Assembly: GCA_963678705.1 (NCBI GenBank)
Contig: OY783221.1
Span: forward strand, 2,356,001 to 2,420,000
Source: Panorpa germanica
Taxonomy: Eukaryota > Arthropoda > Insecta > Mecoptera > Panorpidae
Direction of reading: 5' to 3'
Length of the DNA stretch: 64,000 nt
The stretch's first letter is position 1; each line of letters begins with the position of its first letter. Below, piece after piece: positions 4,035 through 63,894 of the stretch. The notes beneath the pieces are model-generated. The model saw only the letters and a program-made list of their open reading frames with translations. It had not been told where the DNA came from and ran no database searches. Both the position numbers and the translations under genes were made by a program.

Positions 4035-4344
4035 TAGCACATGGGCTGAAAAGTCCCGGTTTTTGGTTCAAAATTAGCTTTATTCATCAACGTAATCTCC
4101 ATCAAGAGCAACGCAATCATTCCAGCGCCGCTCTAACATTTCAATACCACTTTTGTAAAACGATTTATCTTTTGCCTCAAAATAGGCCTTAGTTTCAGCG
4201 ATAACCTCTTCATTCGTGCGAAATTTGTTACCGGCGAGCATTTTTTTCAGGTCTGCGAACAGGCAGTAGTAGCTGGGAGCCAAATCTGGCGAATACGGTG
4301 GATGTGGGAGCAATTCGAAGTTCAATTCATGTAGTTTTGCCATT
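4035..4344 (-). pseudogene. mariner transposase 3' fragment
   Basis: Only the C-terminal 87 codons of a mariner-type transposase remain (4080-4343, minus strand), followed by a short tail containing GGGCTGAAAAGTCCC near 4050 that looks like the inner part of the element's terminal repeat. The recognisable block is PYSPDLAP followed by a Lys/Arg-rich C-terminus ending in DGDYVDE. In the mariner DD34D catalytic triad the third Asp normally follows LAPS; here that residue is Tyr, so this copy could not be catalytic even if complete. The N-terminal helix-turn-helix and the first two Asp residues are absent: sequence upstream of the fragment is unrelated AT-rich DNA, so the element is truncated. 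It is a dead remnant. Subfamily was not assigned. Confidence 0.85.
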
Positions 4345-5783
4345 ATTTTGATTGTGTGTTACAACATATATTTAAAAAGTTCGCTTTTAAGAAATGATAT
4401 TACATATTGAAAAATTATACTACAAACAAAGAAAATACAATATATGATATTAAATTTATTTAAATATATTCGATGTACGCTCGCATTTACGCTTATAATA
4501 ACAGCGACGCCATTTGGAAAAAAGTACATTAAAAAAGAAAACAAAACGATTATATGATAATCACACACGAATATATTTAAAAAGTATATAATGAAAGTAT
4601 ACACATAACCAGTCATGGTAAAAGTTAGGTCTCTAAACATCATAAATATCCATGAAGTAATGGGGAATTTGCTGTTATTTATTTCCTTACTATAATTATA
4701 TTTTATGTGACAGATAAAAGTTTATAGAGGAGAAGTTTAAGTAATAAATAGCTTTGGGAGAATGTTTCCATGTGTTGGTTGTATTTATATACAATATAAG
4801 GAAGTTAAGAATATATAATGTACAAAGGAAAGTATTATAATCTTGAAGGAAAATAACCTATGACCTCCATTGTTCCATAAAACTTATAAGTCATCTTATT
4901 TACTTTTAGAAGTTTGAGTTATTTCAAACTGAAACTTTCATTTTATAGTTTTACGTTGTTCTTTGGTATAAGTAATGCGTCTTTTGTAAATATTATTCAA
5001 AATAACGAAGATTTCCATTATGGTACACGAAAACAAAAACGTACTTGCATTTAATAGCTATCTGAAGTCATTTCGCCAATGAAATTAATTATGAATCAAT
5101 AGTTATCTAGCAGGTCATTGTAGAAACTTTAATAATGACGTCAGTAAACTTTGTAAAGGACGAATTATTGTCCCTTTAATTATGTTCCTTAATTTTTTCA
5201 ATAAATGAAAATTGTAAATCATACATATTCGTGGTCATCTTACTTCTATTGTAAAAGAGTTTCTACTTTGGTTTATATAATTCTTAGCAGGCTAAATACA
5301 CAGGTTCAGTTCCTGACAGGTGTACTGTCAACTTTTCACACTACATATTTTCTAGCAGCAAATTTAATCAAACAAAATTTCAATGATTAATAATTTAGTC
5401 CCACATATATATATATACTTTTGTGTGTTTGTGTGTGCGTGTTTACCTCTCATGTGGTGAATATTGATTGCAATGTCTAGGGTGTCGCTTTGATGAATGC
5501 CTGTTAACATTACAGGATAAGGTAAAACAACACCGGCTATCTGCTAGACCAATAAAACTGTTTTAACAACGAGAACTGCAGGCGGTCACTATTCATTAGT
5601 CATAGATTTTAATTATGTATATAAAGTACATATCGGGTATACTCGTTTTGAAACAGACAAAATGATATGAGTTATTGTATTCTTATCATAAAACCAGGTA
5701 TTTTATTAATTAGATGGTTTATTCAATTTTAAATTCTTTAAATTGTGTGTTGATAAACCAATGAGATTTCAAAATCATGACAA
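4345..5783. other. intergenic, nothing recognised
   Basis: AT-rich with a short TA run near 5405 and a GT run near 5425. No gene or repeat family was recognised. Confidence 0.5.
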
Positions 5784-7327: not shown

Positions 7328-7975
7328 GAGGGGGGTAAGATCAAAACGATAAAAAAGCATATATTCGATAATGTTTTTTGACGACACAAGTAATATATAA
7401 TTATTTCTATAATTACTAGATGATAAAATGACATTTGAAGAATATTTTCTGAAGTTTTCATAAATAAATATCAAGAAATGAGGCATTGACAGCGAATCTT
7501 CGCTGATGTCACAAAAAAAAGTTTCATTGCGGTGTTACTCATAACTCATCACTGGATTTTCTGAAATCGAAAAACCAAAATTATTTCATTAGTTGATAAG
7601 TTTCTGCAGGTAACGCCGTTGAGTTTTTTGTTTATTGATTTTACATGAAAAGATCAGAAACTTTGTTATTTTAAAATACGTTACGACAGCATTACCTCGG
7701 CTACTTTATGTAAAGAAAGAGTGTGCAAAATTTCAAAAGAATCGGTCCAGTACATTCTGAGCTAGAGAGGACACCGTCTGAAAAAGCTAAGTGTGAGAAA
7801 AACGCGTTTAACAGTTTCAAAGTAAGAAGAATTAGACCAGAGAGGTGAAGACTTAAAACTCTATATCTCCGACAGTTTTACTCCAATCGATTTCAAATTT
7901 TCACACAATAAACTTAATATGTTGTACATTAATATAAATAAATAAAAAAAAGTTGAAACCTTTATATCCTTAAAA
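7328..7975 (+). mobile_element. G-rich-ended repeat family, copy 1
   Basis: First of four copies of a 0.45-0.73 kb repeat. It starts with a run of G (AAGAGGGGGGTAAG) and reads through TTCGATAATGTTTTTTGACG, then a segment naming the family in all copies (GAAATCGAAAAACCAAAA), then AGAGAGGTGAAGACTTAAAACTC. The far end of other copies is C-rich, so the termini form a loose inverted repeat. No protein is encoded. It is probably a non-autonomous DNA element. Confidence 0.7.
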
Positions 7976-11642: not shown

Positions 11643-11649
11643 GCACAGC
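11643..11649. repeat. left target-site duplication of the P element
   Basis: GCACAGC sits immediately before the left terminal repeat and occurs again immediately after the right one (15630-15636). The duplication is seven bases; the classical Drosophila P element makes eight. Confidence 0.85.
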
Positions 11650-11710
11650 CAACACCTCCTAAATATACAAGGCCTAACTGCGATTTTGTGACGTCATCAC
11701 TTGTAGTCAT
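11650..11710 (+). repeat. left terminal and internal inverted repeat of the P element
   Basis: Outer 36-bp repeat, one spacer base, then the 24-bp internal repeat TGTGACGTCATCACTTGTAG and four more bases. It pairs with 15558-15629 on the opposite strand. Confidence 0.9.
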
Positions 11711-12152
11711 CTGAACACCAGATGTTTTACACAATTCTACCTAAATATACTTGAAATGTACTTTAAGGGTATTGATTTAGTACAATTTAGAATCTCTCTG
11801 TGCATTACGTATTGTATTTACTTCCATGTTATTTCGGTTAAAAAAATCGTATAAAATATATAATTAATTAAAAATATAAATAATCAGTCTTAAGAGGGTG
11901 TATTTATAGTAACTGTGTTTGTGTTTTTTTTTTGTTTATATTTGGTTTAAACATTAAACTGTTTTAATCTAAAAATTAGTGTTGTGTATGAAAACCTTGT
12001 ATGGTGTATGTGCTGTAAATGTTTTACTGATCATTACGTGTGTAGAATTTTAGCTAACTGTGTAATATATAAAACTAATTATAATATTCCACAATTAATA
12101 ACCAGTTTGTCGAGTGAGTGACTTCTTAAAGTGTAAATTATTAGACAACAAA
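11711..12152 (+). promoter_or_regulatory. probable promoter and 5' leader of the P transposase
   Basis: AT-rich DNA between the left inverted repeats and the first likely ATG, with long T runs near 11927. No unambiguous TATA box or initiator could be chosen by eye. The transcription start is inferred only from position. Confidence 0.35.
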
Positions 12153-15087
12153 ATGCCAAGTAGATGCTGCGTTCCACTTTGTAAGGGCAACTATCCTACG
12201 GGTCCAAAAGTATCTGTATTTGGCTTCCCTAAAGACGAATGCTTAAAAAAGAAATGGTGTTCTGCTATTCAGCGAAAGGCGTTTGTTCCGTCGAATAAAT
12301 CCAAAGTAAGTAGATAATGAGAACGTATGCGTGAAAGATTAATTAGACAAACATACCGACCATCACAAGACTATTATATTAAACTATTTACAGGTCTGCG
12401 AACTCCATTTCAAAAGTGACGATATTGAAACAGAATCGAAAGCGTATGACAACAAAACTGGTGTTCTAGTTTCAGCAACTCTTAAAGTCAAAAGACTAAA
12501 GAAAGGAACTATTCCTTCTGTATTTTCAAATTACCCCAAAAGTGTTGCATATTGCTCCTCAAGCAACACCTCGCCGGGCCCTTCAACAAATAGAGTATCT
12601 CCCGATTCAAAAGCCGAAGAAAGAGAAAATAGATTATTGAATTCAGCGATCATAAACAGTATAAATTCAGCAAATGCCTATAATACCGATCGTAGAATTA
12701 ATAATATAAACAACCTTCTGGATTGTATTAGAAAATACGGTGTTTCTGAGAGATGGTCACATCAGTATTTGCCAGATAAAGAGCTTATTTGCATTTTTTA
12801 TTTAACTGTTGAACCTGAACCCTTAATTCAATATTCTATTACAATAGATAAACATTTGGCATTATCGGTCTTTATAAAGAGTACATTAATTAAGAAAATA
12901 GGCCCAAAATTATTACCACAGAAAATAACTAGCTACAATGAGATTACTGATATTTTAGAAACCATTGTTTTAATCAAGGCAGACAGTAAGACATGCAAAA
13001 GAAGTGCTACATTTCATTTAATCGATGAATTGTTAAAGGACGTTGTAACCAACAAGAATGAAAATATTTTACATTTCTTAAGGGGGCAAATAGAATTGTG
13101 CATATGTCCTACAAATAATTTTAGATATTCCCCTGAGTTATTAGTATTTGCTTCTTTATTAAATACAATTTCACCACATGCCTACAAGTTCTTAAGACAA
13201 AGTGGATATTTTATATTTCCGCATCCTAACACATTGAAGAAAGTATGCAATGATTTACATGTAAATCCGCAGTTAGAAACTAATGATAAAAATTTTTTGA
13301 TGTACGCTAGTAATAGAGTAAGCTATCTTCAAGATTTTGAAAAAACAGTTATACTAATGATTGATGAGATACACATTAAACCATTTTTTGACTATAAGGG
13401 AGGATCTATTGTTGGTGCATCGTTTGATTCAAATACTGCGGCTACAAGTGCCTTTGTTTTTATGGTTTCCAGTTTATTATCACAATTTAAAGATGTTGTT
13501 CATATTGTACCAATTAAAACAATAAATTATGTAACTTTATACAATTTGATAAAAAAGCTTATATTAGGGTTAGAAAAGGCGGGATTCAAAGTCATTTGTG
13601 TTGTTACAGATAACAATGCAATAAATAGAAAAGCTATGAGTTGTTTCGCTGTTCCTAATAAAACATCTTTTCTTTATCAGCATCCCCAGGATGCTAATAG
13701 GCCACTCTTCTATTTAATTGATTCGGTTCATCTTCTTAAAAACATTAGAAATAACTGGTTAAATCAAAAAAATATTGGACAGTGTATGTTTTTTCCAGAT
13801 TTTGAAAAAGGTGATAATTGTAGAACTGCATCATTTTCTGCTCTTAAAAAGTTATATGAAATAGAAAATACTGCAATCATTTCTTATGCACACGGGTTAA
13901 CATTTAAGAGCATTGCACCTTCAAATCTTGAGCGCCAAAATGTGAAATTAGTGTTGAAAATTTTCAACCAATTTGTAGTTCAAGGTTTGAATGAAAAAGG
14001 ACGTCTGCATAATATTGAGTATTATAATGATACGTCAATTTTTATTTCAATCATTTGCAAATGGTGGGATGTTATGAACGTTAAAACTGTATACAAAGGT
14101 TTACACAAAAGTAACATTTACATGACACCTTTAACAAAGGACAAATCAGATCAGAAATTTATATTTTTAAACAAATTTATTGACTGGCTCGACGCGTGGC
14201 AACAAATGAATTTTTCCAGTGGTTGCTTTACTAATCAAACGCACGATGCGTTAAGACAAACTACATACGGAATGTTAGAATTGTGTCGTTATTGCATAGA
14301 CGAACTAAAATTTACTTATATATTACCAGGTAAAATTCAAACAGATTTACTTGAAGATAGATTTGGCAAATATAGGCAATTAGCTGGGTCTCAATATCAC
14401 ATCTCCATGAGACAAGTTCTAGAGTGTGAAAAAAAATTACGTCTTCAATCAAATTTAAAACTAGAACTAATAATTAAAGATAGAGCAATGACAGTGCAAA
14501 CATTACAATGTCCAGAAAATATTCTAGATAATATTGAAGATACTAATGAAGCAATGACACCATTGCAATCGGTAGTAATTAGCGAAATGGATATAGCCAA
14601 TGTAGAAGAATTATTACCTGTAATTACATATTTAGCGGGGTATTGTTGTCATGCTGTTTTAAAAAAAATTAAGTGTAGCAAGTGTAAAGAAATCTTAACA
14701 ATTGATAAGACAATTTCTTTACACCAGTCATACAATTTAATAAAAAATCTTGATCGTGGAGGCCTGATTTGTCCGACACCTTCTGTAGTCAATTTAGTTA
14801 TGTACAATTATTTAATAGTTGAAAAGTTGTCTCGTGATATAGATTTTTTCTCTCTCCAAAATCAGAGAAAATATATAATAGATGTTACATGCAAAACTTT
14901 AGAAGTTAAAGAAATGCTGTTAGAAGACCTTCTTGATCTCGAGTGTCATAACAACTATTATATATGCAAGTTATTAATTCATGTTTCAACTAATATTATG
15001 TTAAATAATTTATCATCTCGTAAAAATGACGACTTGCAACATAATAAACAGTATAAGAAAAGAAAATTGCAAACTCTAACTACATAA
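12153..15087 (+). CDS. THAP-domain P-element transposase
   Basis: DNA transposase of the P superfamily (relatives: Drosophila P transposase and vertebrate THAP9). Exon 1 is 12153-12305 and exon 2 is 12394-15087, separated by an 88-bp GTAAGT...CAG intron in phase 0; the joined frame is 948 codons. Residues about 1-90 form a THAP zinc finger: candidate ligands C5, C10, C53 and H56, conserved P26 and W35, and a TIPSVF box corresponding to AVPTIF. The intron splits the finger between residues 51 and 52. The RNase H-like core shows MIDEIHIK (D375), VTDNN (D457), the DSVHLLKNIRN block typical of the family (D494) and LLEDRFGKYR (E705), so D375/D457/E705 are the proposed catalytic residues. The C-terminus has an AGYCCHAVLKK block with a Cys-rich motif. 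The start chosen is the ATG directly before the THAP cysteines; an upstream in-frame GTG at 12114 is less likely. Longer than Drosophila P transposase (751 aa), similar to THAP9. Intact. Confidence 0.92.
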
Positions 15088-15153
15088 ATATGGTTCTAAA
15101 TATAAGTATTGTTATTGTATACACTCGTATATTGTTAAAAGAAATATATGAAA

Positions 15154-15159
15154 AATAAA
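15154..15159 (+). terminator. polyadenylation signal of the P transposase
   Basis: AATAAA lies 67 bases after the stop codon, still inside the element. Confidence 0.6.
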
Positions 15160-15200
15160 GTTAATATTTTTATATAATACATTTTTATTATTATTATTTT

Positions 15201-15205
<5 letters not shown>

Positions 15206-15239
<34 letters not shown>
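15206..15239. repeat. (TA)n microsatellite
   Basis: An almost pure TA run of about 34 bases between the transposase gene and the right end of the P element. Confidence 0.9.
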
Positions 15240-15240
<1 letters not shown>

Positions 15241-15557
15241 GGAAGGTATACCATTTTCCTTTTTTGCATATGTGTGTTACTAGTCTATTTATTTTAATTT
15301 TTGTAGAAATGTTACGATTTAGAAATGTTACTTAGTTTAAAATTAAATTTTCGATGTATTTTACTTCTTTAATTACTCATTATAAAACCCTTACAAAAAC
15401 CAATTCATAAACAAACAATTCATTAATTGCAAACTAATTAATAATTTAAAAATGATAGTCCTTAATAATTTGTAACCAGAAACTTTGTTCAATACCCTAT
15501 ATGATACTAACATTTTCAAACAAACTGTCTTATACCGATAGCAGAACTCAGCAGCAT

Positions 15558-15629
15558 ATGACTACAAGTGATGACGTCACATACCATTGACTGAATCGCT
15601 GTTAGGCTTTGTATATTTAGGAGGTGTTG
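15558..15629 (-). repeat. right internal and terminal inverted repeat of the P element
   Basis: Internal 24-bp repeat (15558-15581), about 12 unmatched bases, then the outer 36-bp repeat ending GGAGGTGTTG. The outer repeat differs from the left copy at two positions. Confidence 0.9.
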
Positions 15630-15636
15630 GCACAGC
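15630..15636. repeat. right target-site duplication of the P element
   Basis: GCACAGC, identical to 11643-11649. Confidence 0.85.
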
Positions 15637-16990: not shown

Positions 16991-17590
16991 CTTTAAACAG
17001 TTTCGTTGACAACCATTGTTTAATACATGGAAATCCCAGCGAAGTCTGAGTTCGCGTGTAATCTAACTCAGAAAGTGCAAGTTCATTCCTGTTTACGAGT
17101 GTACATCACTTTTATTTTTGTTTAGCATGATGCACTAAATGAACTGACTGCTTGTAATTTGTACATGAACTATATATATTGCTGGGGAACAAAAACTAAA
17201 GCCTGTGGGGTCATGTAGTCCCCTAGATTGAACATAGAGTACTTTATAAACGAACTAACGAGTTGCAAGGGCACCATCGATCGCCTTCTACTGATGTATG
17301 TTCATATACGTCACTAATCACATGCATACGAGTATATACATATGTACATAAATACTAAGTAACTAAATACACTATATATGTAAATAACTAAATGTCAGTA
17401 GAATAATTATCTAAAACTTAAAACCTTATTTGAAGATTGAAAATTCCAAATTATTCGATGAGAAAATTTCAATTATGACAAGACTGAAATTTAAATTTGA
17501 TATAGCTATAACTTCGTCAACTTTTATATATTATAATATTTTCAGTTTAGTAGGGAGCTATGCTAGATAATTCTGCACCTTCTAATAGAA
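16991..17590. other. intergenic, nothing recognised
   Basis: AT-rich spacer before a MITE copy. Nothing recognised. Confidence 0.45.
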
Positions 17591-18188
17591 CAGGCTTGTG
17601 TCCTATGTCTTAATTTCTGTAAAACTGTCCTATATATTGATAAAGTGGGTTACTAGAACCTCAAATGTTCAATTATTTTTTAATAACTCCTTATATGTTA
17701 AAAGATATTAACAATTAAAAAAGTCATTTTGTCTCTTTAATTATTAAAGAGATTCAAAGTTGTACACATTCCAAATGCATATGACATCACAACTGCTGCC
17801 AACCTTACAGCTCATAAATCTCTGCTATATGTATTTATATATCAAAATATCAAATATTATTTACAGCTATTTCAAGGAACAATCAAATTCCAATATTATG
17901 TCTGCCGTAACAGTGTTAAATAAAATAAAAACTTATTATTCTTTGACTTGACTACTAACAGCTACAGAACATTACTACAGCACTGACCTACTCAACAAAT
18001 AACTGACGTTAAAATGCATTTCACGTTATATAAATATGGCCGACTATTTCTAGGGCTAAAACTACAATTCAAACTTTTAATTGCTATATCTCCGTCAACA
18101 TTTAGATATTTAATAAAATAGACACGCTAATACACATTTATTAACATCAATTTCAATCAACAGTTGAAAAATCAATTCGAAAATCGAA
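17591..18188 (-). mobile_element. MITE family TGGGCTTGTGTCC, copy 2
   Basis: Inverted relative to copy 1. Its right-hand terminus is present as GGCTTGTGTCC at the low-coordinate end; the other terminus stops after GTTGAAAAATC and lacks the ACACAAGCCCA end. About 600 bp, no coding capacity. The open stretch 17760-17951 lies wholly inside it and is not a gene. Confidence 0.75.
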
Positions 18189-19834: not shown

Positions 19835-21602
19835 TTTGAACTAGAGCAGATAATATTTAATGTGCATGTATTATTGATTTCATACAAGGTTTGTGGTTTT
19901 GTTGCTCTGCTGAAACAAAGTCCAACGGAACGGTCTCTTTGTTCGTCAACTACATCATAAAATTTGTACAGCCTCCAGGCTACGACCGTACCTTGTTATG
20001 AGTTGCCCTGTTTACCTCTAGCTTTGATAATTAATTCTGGATTACCTTGCAACGACGTCTGTAGCATTTTGTTGTGCAAAATATGTTTCCAAGTAAAATC
20101 AAATGAAATAAATTCATTTATAAAAGATAATCAGTGACGCCTAACGTATGTAAAACGCAACTATTTTATCATGAAACCAGTTATAACAGCTATAAAACAC
20201 CACAAATGTGCGTTCATTTCATTTACCATTAGATTTGTTATCAAAGTAATATATTAAACAGTTATATATTTATTATATTTCTATAAGTATTGTTTGTAAT
20301 GATTAGGGATTGTTAACATGTTGTTTGTGTTGCTTCCATTCAGGCGCGTAAACTCAATTCTAGATAACCAATCTCGAATACTTCTCTACTCTTCCACGTT
20401 TGATACAAAACATACGTTCTTGCGATCGCATACCTTAACTCAACTATAAATAGAATTTTGAATTAGAAATAATTTATTACTTTATTGTTATATATGTAAC
20501 TTTCTTTCATTTCATGATCCTTTCTTTAAGTTTTTAATTAAGAACATTCACACACTGGATAATCGACCTTTTGGAATTTAATTAATTTCTAAATAAATAA
20601 CAGTATTATTTTTAGTTTATTGAAGTCTTATTGTTTTTCAAAACTTATAATTACAATAAATAATTAATACCATTATTATTTAATCAATTTCGTGTTTCAA
20701 TAAAATGGCATGTGCTTCGAATGTCAATTGTTCGCGTGTTTCGGACTTATTTTCCAATAAAATTAATATTATAAACGAATTTGTTTGATAGCAACTTACC
20801 TTTCTACTTATATCTACACGAATTCTAAATTTAATTTTTATAAGAATTTATTCTAGTATACTGCGCCTGCGAGTAAAAACATGCAATCCTTATTACGCGT
20901 TTTACTGACGTACTAGGACGTCTAGGCGCAGTATTCATAATATTTTAATATATGCGTAGCATTTTCAAGTTTTAACATACCAAATAAATATCTAATCTTT
21001 CACAATACAGTCGTATGTTTTAAAAATGGAGCATATTATATTATAGCGATTCTAACCCTTTCCTAAGACCTTAAACTTATTTATTTGAGAGAAACTCAAA
21101 ATCATATGTTCTCCTCCCCTGAACTAGGTTGTACATATTACATAAATATAATTATTAAGTAATATGCTTAAAAGGTTTCTTTATAACAATATAATCTAAC
21201 ATTTTTCATTTTACTAAAGTTAATTTTCTTGATGTAATAAAATGAATAAATTAATTTGTTTTCTTTATTATTATTTTATAAAGCTTATAAAATAACCATG
21301 ACCTTAACTAACCTTCAAATTATATAATGGACTTTGTTAACTGAAATATACTCATATAAAATATAAACAATGTTAAAAATATATAAAAATAAACCTGAAC
21401 TGTTTCTATTCTTGCCAACATGGGTGTTTACACTCTGCTCAACATAATAAAAGTTACCTGTTACGTAAGCGATTTTACCAATAAACTTTTCATGACCCAT
21501 TTTACTTTTTTTTGAAAAATAGATCTATGCTTTTACTCATAAAATTTTATAAGAATTATAGAATTATAGGAACCCATCTTTAACGATTAAATGCTTTTAG
21601 AA
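19835..21602. other. intergenic, nothing recognised
   Basis: AT-rich. Position 21331-21384 is the apparent source of a 54-bp inverted insertion found in the next MITE copy. No gene recognised. Confidence 0.45.
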
Positions 21603-22277
21603 TGGGCTTGTGTCCTATGTCTTAATTTCTATAAAAGTGTACTATATATTGATAAAGTGGGTTACTAGAACCTCAAATGTTCAATTATTTTTTAATAATT
21701 CCTTATATGTTAAGAGATATTAACAATTAAAAAAGTCATTTTGTCTCTTTAATTATTAAAGGGATTCAACATTGTACACATTCCAAATGCATGTGACATC
21801 ACAATCGCTGCCAACCTTACAGCTCATAAATCTCTGCTATATGTATTTATATATCAAAATATCAAATATTATTTATTAGTATTGCAAGGAACAACAAAAT
21901 TGCAATATTATGTCTGCCTTAGCAGGGTTAAATAAAATAAAAACTTATTATTCTTTGACTTGACTTGATTATTTGATTACCAACAGCTACAAAACATTAC
22001 CACAGCACTGACCTACTCAACAAATAACTGACGTGAAAATGCATTTCACGTCATACAAATATGGCCGACCATTTATATATTTTTAACATTGTTTATATTT
22101 TATATGAGTATATTTCAGTTAACAAAGTCTAGCGCTAAAACTACAATTCAAACTTTTAATTGCTATATCTCCCTCAATATTTAGATATTTAATAAAATAG
22201 ACACGCCAATACACATTTATTAACATTTCAAACAACAATTGAAAAATCGACCACTAAAAAATGAGGACACAAGCCCA
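21603..22277 (-). mobile_element. MITE family TGGGCTTGTGTCC, copy 4, with an inserted block
   Basis: Both termini are intact (TGGGCTTGTGTCC and GGACACAAGCCCA). It is interrupted at 22075-22128 by 54 bases absent from every other copy, lying between CCGACCATTT and CTAGCGC, which are adjacent in copy 1. Confidence 0.85.
22075..22128 (-). repeat. 54-bp inverted copy of 21331-21384
   Basis: Exact reverse complement of 21331-21384, which lies outside the MITE. Shared bases at the junctions (TTT on one side, C on the other) look like microhomology. The likely origin is a template-switching repair event inside the MITE. Confidence 0.85.
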
Positions 22278-41250: not shown

Positions 41251-41970
41251 GGTCAAAACGATACAAAAGAAGCATATTTTCGATAATGTTTTTTGACGAT
41301 ACACTTAATATATAATTATTTCTATAATTACTACATGATAAAATGACATTTGAAGAATACTTTGTGAAATTTTCATAAATAAATATCAAGAAATAAGCCA
41401 TTGACAGCGAATCTCCGCAGACGTCACAAAAAAAAGTAACATTGCGGTGCCACTCATAACTCATCACTAGATTTTCTGAAATCGAAAAACCAAAATGATT
41501 TCATTAGTTGATAAGTTACTTCAAGTAACGTTGCCGAGTTTTTCTATTTTTATTGATTTTTCAATTATTTACAGCACTTAAAAGTTAAAATACCGATTTT
41601 TCATGAAAAAAATCAGAAACTTTGTTATTTCAAAATACGTTAAAATTAAAAAATAAAAAAGAACTCGACAGCGTTACCTCGGCATTTATGTAAAGAAAGG
41701 GTGTGCAAAATTTCAAAAGAATCGGTCATGTAGATTTTGAGCTAGAGAGGACACCGACTCTGAAAAAGCTATGTGTGAGAAACCGCATGTAAAAGTTTCA
41801 AAGTAACACGAAAGCAGACCAGAGAGGTGAAGACTTAAAACTCTGTATCTCATACAGTTTTAATCCAATCGACTTCAAATTTTTACACAATAAACTTAAT
41901 ATGTTGTACAATAATATAAATAAATAAAAGAAAATGGAAATAGTTTAAACCTTATCCCTCCCCCCTTAAA
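41251..41970 (+). mobile_element. G-rich-ended repeat family, copy 2
   Basis: About 720 bp in the same orientation as copy 1. It begins GGTCAAAACGATACAAAAG and ends with CTTATCCCTCCCCCCTTAAA. It is the fullest copy, including a segment (about 41560-41670) with AAAGTTAAAATACCGATTTT that copy 1 partly lacks. The open minus-strand stretch 41180-41467 is a repeat shadow. Confidence 0.75.
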
Positions 41971-54783: not shown

Positions 54784-55510
54784 GATGGGAAAAGGTTTCA
54801 ACTTTTTTTCCCCATTTTTTTTATTTATCTATATTATTGTACAACATATTAAGTTTATTGTGTAAAAATTTGAAGTCGATTGAAGTAAAACTGTCGAAGA
54901 TATAGAGTTTTAAGTCTTCACCTCTCTGGTCTGCTTTCGTGTTACTTAGAAACTTTCAAATGCGTTTTCTCACACAAAGCTTTTTCAGAGACGGTGTCCT
55001 CTCTAGCTCAAAATCTACTTGACCGATTCTTTTGAAATTTTGCACACTCTTTCTTTACATGAATGCCGAGGTAACGCTGTCGAGTTTTTAGTTTTAACGT
55101 ATTTTAAAATAACAAAGTTTCTTATTTTTTTCATGAAAAATTAGTATTTTGACTTTTAAGTGCTGTAAAGAATTAAAAAATTAATGAAAAAATAAAAAGT
55201 TGACAGCGTTACCTGCAAAAACTTATCAACTAATGAAATCATTTTGGTTTTTCGATTTCAGAAAATCCAGTTATGAGTTATGAGTGGCATCGCAATGTTA
55301 CTTTTTTGTGACGTCTGTGGAGATTCGCTGTCAATGCCTCATTTAATGATATTTATTTATGAAAATTTTACAAAGTATTCTTCAAATGTTATTTTATCAT
55401 GTAGTAATTATTGAAATAATTATATATTAACTGTATCGTCAAAAAACATTATCAAAAATATGCTTTTTTGTATCGATTTGGCTTTAACACCCCACCACCC
55501 TCCCCTCTTA
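54784..55510 (-). mobile_element. G-rich-ended repeat family, copy 4
   Basis: About 725 bp, inverted relative to copy 1 and full length. It carries TTTAAGTCTTCACCTCTCTG near one end and GACAGCGTTACCTGCAAAAA in the middle, and ends in CACCCCACCACCCTCCCCTC. Confidence 0.75.
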
Positions 55511-63019: not shown

Positions 63020-63894
63020 CCAGGTCTGTTCAAAAAATAAGGTGAGGCAAAAATTTCGCGGGCTACGTACATTCGATTATCGATTTTTTTATTTTGTTAT
63101 ATTGGTACACTCGTCTCGAACATATATTCACAGTTTTAGCTATATAGCACATTTAGTTTGTTTGTGAGAGGCATAAAAGGTAGAAGTGTTTTGCGTGTTC
63201 GGTGATTTTATGCTGTCGAAAAACATGGATCAAAGAGTTTGCATTAAATTTTGTGTGAAAAATGGAATCAAGTGCTCCAAAACACTTGAAATGTTGAAAG
63301 TGGCATACGGTGAGTCTACTTTAAGCCAAATAAATGTTAACAAGTGGTACAAGCTTTTCACAGAAGGTCGAGAAGATGTGAATGACGACGCTCGCCCTGG
63401 AGAATCGTCGAATCACTATTAGAGAAGTTGCTGAGGATGTCGGCATATCGGTTGGCTCATGCCATGCAATTTTTTCGGAAATTATGGGCATGAAGCATGT
63501 AGCAGCGATTTTGACCAAAAAAATCGTCGCATGAGCATCGCTCAGGAATTGTTGAATGACGTCAATGGCTAAAAACAACACCGTAATCATGCCTCAGCCA
63601 CCGTATTCACCAGATTTGGCCCCCTGCGACTTTTTCCTGTTCCCAAGATTGAAGAGACCCATGAAAGGACGGCGTTTTAAGACGATTGAGGAGATACAAA
63701 CCGAATCGCTGAGAGGGCTCAAGAGCATACCAAAAAGTGCATATCAGAACTGCTTCGAGGATTGGAAAAAACGCTGGCACAAGTGTATTATATCTGAGGG
63801 GGACTACTTTGAAGGGGACAAAATAGAAATTGATGAATAAATAAATGTTTTTTGAGAAAAATGAAAATTCACCTTATTTTTTGAACAGACAGTG
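63020..63894 (+). mobile_element. internally deleted mariner element
   Basis: 875 bp with 26-bp terminal inverted repeats sharing the core CTGTTCAAAAAATAAGGTGA and a TA on each side (63018-63019 and 63895-63896). A full mariner is about 1.3 kb, so roughly 0.4 kb is missing from the middle. The ends are well kept, so it could be moved in trans by an active relative; that is inference. Confidence 0.9.
63210..63840 (+). pseudogene. deleted mariner transposase
   Basis: Three broken pieces of one mariner transposase. The first (ATG 63210 to 63422) is the N-terminal helix-turn-helix region, with RVCIKFCVKNG, YGESTLSQ and KLFTEGREDV, and ends at a frameshift stop. The second, in another frame (about 63400-63560), continues RITIREVAEDVGISVGSCHA, then DQKNRRMS-like and ELLNDV. 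After that about 140 codons, including the first two catalytic Asp residues, are deleted. The third (63556-63840) resumes at NNTVIMPQPPYSPDLAPCDF, where the third Asp of the DD34D triad is intact, and ends normally with KRWHKCIISEGDYF and an acidic tail. It cannot make an active enzyme. It is from a different mariner lineage than the fragment at 4035-4344. Confidence 0.9.

Follow-up and report, generated by a model that had tools for sequence, protein, structure and literature searches.

Among the described systems closest to the element reported here, the Drosophila P element is 2.9 kb long with 31-bp terminal repeats, three introns and 8-bp target duplications, has 9 and 21 bp between terminal repeat and binding site at its two ends, and encodes a transposase whose catalytic residues are D230, D303 and E531 (PMC7776569). 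Galileo, also of Drosophila, is described as having long, internally repetitive terminal repeats, a palindromic target motif of 15 bp, mostly 7-bp target duplications with the consensus GTATTAC or GTANTAC, and a transposase with a THAP finger, a DDE triad and a D-x2-H motif (PMC4168063). The P elements of Anopheles gambiae, at 4.2-7.5 kb with terminal repeats of 27-31 bp, are reported to make 8-bp duplications, to have three putative exons with one exception, to encode transposases of 876-895 aa (three reference sequences) and to have been recently mobile, leaving short derivatives (miniature inverted-repeat transposable elements, MITEs) (PMC1562414). Zebrafish Pdre2/THAP9 is presented as a P-superfamily element with an active transposase, internally deleted relatives, 13-bp terminal repeats, distant 12-bp subterminal repeats and 8-bp duplications (PMC10983969). 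Here, a stretch of 64,000 nucleotides from the scorpionfly Panorpa germanica (contig OY783221.1, positions 2,356,001-2,420,000; hereafter the window) is found to carry what can be called, with high confidence, an autonomous cut-and-paste P-superfamily transposon that has multiplied very recently in this host.

What the Panorpa element has in common with the Drosophila P element is a transposase that aligns through the RNase-H core and further, terminal repeats that are short, the presence of subterminal repeats, and ends that are unequally spaced, the subterminal repeat lying 1 bp inside the terminal repeat at one end and 12 bp inside it at the other. It differs in its 7-bp duplications, 4.0 kb length, 36-bp terminal repeats and one predicted intron. 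It resembles the Anopheles elements in length, terminal repeats, transposase size, recent mobility and short derivatives, and differs from them in duplication length and exon number. Like Pdre2 it has internally deleted relatives, but its terminal repeats are longer, its subterminal repeats are closer to the ends and its duplications are shorter. With Galileo, which was compared by description, it shares the 7-bp duplications, a palindromic target motif, the THAP finger, the triad and the D-x2-H motif (D494-x2-H497; residue numbers are those of the 948-aa protein), but neither the long, internally repetitive terminal repeats nor the GTANTAC target are present, the Panorpa motif being a different one. 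The element is a new family of a well-known P-superfamily kind; its 7-bp duplications recall Galileo, its asymmetric ends recall P, and it is set apart from Galileo by description. Its parts, in window coordinates, are as follows.

11650-15629: P-superfamily transposon, 3,980 bp between matched ends
11643-11649, no strand: left target-site duplication, 7 bp, same letters as 15630-15636
15630-15636, no strand: right target-site duplication, 7 bp, exact match to 11643-11649
11650-11685, + strand: left terminal inverted repeat, 36 bp, two mismatches against the right repeat
15594-15629, - strand: right terminal inverted repeat, 36 bp, two mismatches against the left repeat
11687-11713, + strand: left subterminal inverted repeat, 27 bp, 1 bp inside the terminal repeat, one mismatch to 15555-15581
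15555-15581, - strand: right subterminal inverted repeat, 27 bp, 12 bp inside the terminal repeat
12153-12305, + strand: transposase exon 1, ATG at 12153, initial part of the THAP finger (THAP domain, residues 5-95)
12306-12393, + strand: predicted intron, 88 bp, GT..AG, within the THAP coding region
12394-15087, + strand: transposase exon 2, remaining THAP finger, helix-turn-helix (HTH), RNase-H core, D375, D457 and E705, ending with the stop codon
12066-12072, + strand: TATA-like sequence upstream of the gene, a weak match by pattern only, with three further such matches more upstream
15154-15159, + strand: poly(A)-signal-like sequence, by pattern only
15201-15237, no strand: TA microsatellite downstream of the stop codon, of highly variable length among copies

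The Panorpa germanica genome (464,208,970 bp, 249 contigs; the window lies on C18) contains 23 full-length copies of the element, the window copy and L010-L031, and a protein search returns the same 23 places. The searched assembly lacks a few small scaffolds of ijPanGerm4.1, which is reported as 254 scaffolds and 464,228,243 bp (PMC11464959). The reading frame is open in 22 of the 23, with 948 codons in 17 and 944 codons in five that share a 12-bp in-frame deletion, while L018 has a stop at codon 944. Identity to the window copy by blastn, with gaps counted, ranges from 97.6 to 99.8% across the other 22 and reaches 98% or more in 19 of them, and the gaps fall mostly at the TA repeat. Substitutions relative to the window copy number 0-4 in 21 of the 22, with none at all in L012 and L017; the exception is the older L029. 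With L029 excluded, the remaining 22 copies (231 pairs) have a mean pairwise divergence of 0.067%, a maximum of 0.175% and 17 variable columns. At an assumed mutation rate of 3e-9 per site and generation, a figure for other insects, the mean divergence corresponds, as a rough estimate, to about 110,000 generations. For a neutral frame of equal length, the chance of remaining open would have dropped to 5% at a divergence of 0.5-1.2%, the value varying with the rates assumed. Structural variation among the full-length copies comprises loss of the final 8 bp, and with it the right end, in L028, 67 extra bases from a left-end duplication in L014 and L015, and a 231-bp insertion near the left end of L029, which has 28 differences in the joint alignment and 59 in a pairwise alignment that places the insertion elsewhere. 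The TA microsatellite differs in length from that of the window in every other full-length copy, the remainder of the element being almost invariant in young copies, and it offers a ready marker to trace copies.

The ends and target duplications were surveyed in 37 copies (the window copy and L010-L045) by an 18-base search allowing up to two mismatches. Both ends were located in 30, of which 29 have an exact 7-bp duplication, rather than the 8 bp of a canonical Drosophila-type P element, and only L036 lacks one; a single end was located in the other seven (L028, L033, L038 and L042-L045). The 29 sites carry 28 distinct duplication sequences, and the recurrent one (L019 and L026) stands in differing flanks. 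Centred on the duplication is a palindromic target motif that is strongest two bases outside it: 51 of 58 half-sites (29 sites; binomial P 2e-34) have G at -5 or C at +5, and 36 of 58 have G at -3 or C at +3. G+C content is 0.438 in the 20 bp next to these insertions and declines to 0.332 over 450 bp; the comparison value, taken from the window only, is 0.302. Furthermore, one internal deletion is shared by L034, L035 and L037, which sit at different places, each with its own duplication, and the same holds for another internal deletion in L040 and L041. The left-end duplication variant is likewise present at two places, L014 and L015, whose flanks are unrelated and whose target duplications differ. 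The duplications at many sites, together with the deleted and doubled-end variants, demonstrate movement by transposition, and the internally deleted variants have moved as well, behaving as non-autonomous P derivatives do.

The ends of the window copy are far better matched than chance would provide. When 2,741 pairs of positions with similar spacing were drawn at random from the window, and the best of 41 shifts taken for each pair, the minimum was 12 mismatches in 36. Terminal inverted repeats and target duplications in the size range of the P superfamily (7-8 bp) are both present. A shorter duplication with longer repeats was considered and rejected: the terminal repeat seems to extend by two bases because the duplication has identical first and last two bases, and the other two-ended copies stop exactly at the 36-bp repeat. 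When the two ends are aligned end to end, 11 extra bases lie between the right repeats relative to the left. The left subterminal repeat is a candidate site for the THAP finger or a host factor. Both subterminal repeats also contain a perfect palindrome resembling the cAMP response element (CRE), TGACGTCA, at 11689-11696 and at the corresponding bases of 15555-15581, which could be a candidate site for basic leucine zipper (bZIP) proteins. The window holds no second copy, as the terminal repeat is present at both ends of the element only, and blastn of the element against the remaining window gave short matches only, at E 0.005 or worse.

The two-exon gene model gives 948 codons with the stop ending at 15087. 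The GT..AG of the predicted intron is conserved in 23 of 23 full-length copies. Four further GT/AG pairs among those tried also preserve the frame; the pair 12305/12394 is judged the best because it cleanly joins the C..H pair of the THAP finger. The THAP finger passes the Pfam cut-off (PF05485, E 5e-16, residues 5-95), stands at the N-terminus as in other members of the superfamily and also matches the solved THAP domains of THAP1, THAP2 and THAP11. Above the cut-off, too, are PF12017 (Tnp_P_element HTH, E 3.5e-7) and PF21787 (TNP-like_RNaseH_N, E 1.4e-15), while a laxer Pfam scan of the exon-2 protein added nothing. In a search of solved sequences with a limit of E 1, the exon-2 protein has a sole match, to 6p5a/6pe2, the transposase of the Drosophila P element (E 7e-12), and, counted along that alignment, D375, D457 and E705 are in register with D230, D303 and E531 of 6p5a. 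The HTH and RNase-H core of a P transposase with its D, D, E triad are therefore all in place. The original prediction, made before any search, had named the 7-bp target duplication, the 36-bp terminal repeats with two mismatches, the internal inverted repeats, a THAP finger and a 948-codon open transposase with these three acidic residues, and each of these was recovered. It had also proposed a recently active lineage, to be checked by a search for copies above 98% identity and contradicted by one old, fixed copy; the near-identical copies with their own duplications support the proposal, 22 other full-length copies stand at different places, 19 of them at 98% identity or more, and the contradicting outcome did not arise.

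Several observations weigh against this reading of the element as autonomous and recently multiplied. No Pfam domain is found beyond residue 468 of the transposase, and although the stretch between D457 and E705, the would-be GTP-binding insertion, aligns to 6p5a, it has no Pfam match, and the AlphaFold model, built from the single sequence and no alignment, is too poor to use (mean predicted local distance difference test score, pLDDT, 32.5). Of the 14 coding changes found in young copies, 12 change the encoded protein, as expected from drift after insertion, so that, in these small numbers, no constraint is visible once a copy has inserted. Moreover, a search of this assembly for an empty version of the window's insertion site met just its two halves, at the place where the element sits, so that mobility today is likely rather than demonstrated.

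The explanation that survives best against current mobility is that the burst is already over, the copies being intact only through recency and the family now silenced. The protein-altering changes in young copies fit such an ending, as single copies show no constraint, and older members of the family are already dead. On the other side, the frame is kept in all full-length copies but one, and two copies have no substitution relative to that of the window, so silencing, if any, would be very recent; this explanation is judged unlikely, though it is the most serious of the rivals. Far less probable is that the copies arose by segmental or assembly duplication instead of transposition. In eight pairs compared over 500-bp flanks, L043/L044 match at 99.4% on both sides and L034/L036 at 100% on the left, but the other six share nothing at E 1e-5, and the diversity of duplication sequences, with the recurrent one in different surroundings, also speaks against it. 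Duplication of this kind is refuted for copies with unrelated flanks and their own duplications; it stands for L043/L044 and perhaps for L036. L034 and L036 lie about 45 kb apart on C12, on opposite strands, with the same internally deleted element, an identical 500-bp left flank and different right flanks, an arrangement that may reflect inverted duplication, ectopic exchange or assembly error. A host gene of the THAP9 type, domesticated and lying by chance between inverted repeats, would account for a long frame that is intact and encodes THAP, HTH and RNase-H domains, but is practically out of the question, since a single locus lacking flanking repeats would be expected of domesticated THAP9 and copy number and individual duplications instead identify a recent transposon burst.

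The recent burst was not the first in this host. Older copies are about 84-98% identical in DNA, in pieces, and a protein search finds copies with many stops on C1 and C7; these decayed and stop-rich copies point to earlier waves of the transposon. Duplications of 7 bp were read by eye at four older copies (L038, L042, L049 and L050), and L049 and L050, together with L051, are the three places of an older internally deleted derivative of about 2.2 kb, in pieces that are 83-89% identical. Of the 17 coding changes that separate the window copy from L029, which is older but intact, 8 change the protein, where a fraction of 0.741 is expected (binomial P 0.016; small numbers); this suggests selection for a working transposase between bursts. 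The young burst may have been either a reactivation or a new arrival.

P-type sequences are common in the Panorpa germanica genome. A profile search with PF21787 found at least 150 places (150 of 241 candidates scored), young copies included, with many other P-superfamily sequences among them, some in open frames of several hundred residues. These places lie mainly on C1, C2, C5, C6 and C7, and only three of the other P-superfamily sequences among the matches listed are on C21, which is probably the X chromosome. Seven of the 23 full-length copies (L010, L013, L016, L018, L020, L021 and L029) are on C21 against 2.4 expected from its length (one-sided binomial P 0.007), rising to nine of 25 when two long truncated copies are added (P 0.0006); among duplication-bearing sites the figure is eight of 29 (P 0.008). 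All three tests are post hoc, conceived after the list was known, and assume equal chance per base. XX/XO is reported for the group in an account of P. cognata (PMC10715201).

A working cycle can be proposed on the pattern of the Drosophila P element. Spliced mRNA would be translated into the 948-aa transposase, whose THAP finger would bind near the subterminal repeats, a GTP-assisted complex would pair the two element ends, and the site formed by D375, D457 and E705 would cut and join with a 7-bp stagger; the same transposase would mobilise internally deleted copies in trans. The fuller proposition, that this is a currently mobile P-superfamily transposon of Mecoptera with 7-bp duplications, a retained end asymmetry of about one helical turn (11 bp) and an X-biased recent burst, is possible and is advanced tentatively. 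If it is true, differing spacing at the two ends would be an ancient functional trait of the superfamily rather than a peculiarity of the Drosophila P element. The Panorpa element is no new kind of system, but it is well preserved and recent, with useful derivatives. It provides P-superfamily copies that are nearly identical and have open frames, in an insect that is not a dipteran, together with a recent burst, derivatives that are non-autonomous, and a target motif. This set could be used to test the pairing of unequal ends and the origin of 7-bp versus 8-bp staggers, and to follow a P invasion in a group reported as XX/XO (PMC10715201).

Relatives of the element were absent from viral, genome-contig and phage collections at the sensitivity of the searches made. 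One viral contig, L001, carries a 20-base piece of the terminal repeat (21 by blastn) and is otherwise a weak match; it was taken as chance because the piece overlaps an apparent ribosome-binding site before a phage gene, as read by eye in the contig. Among the literature matches listed there was no published report of the Panorpa element, and those listed for Mecoptera and Panorpa make no use of 'P element'.

The window also carries a TIM21 exon and a PQ-loop exon and is therefore eukaryotic nuclear DNA. Mariner-like transposase remnants lie at 4083-4358 (- strand), with a DDE_3 match under the cut-off, and at 63177-63837 (+ strand), with HTH_48 at 63177-63419 (E 2e-5) and the part beyond 63419 judged by eye. 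Interspersed repeat families, about 70-97% alike, occupy 41254-41958, 54787-55480, 7338-7958, 17586-18173, 21598-22248 and other places.

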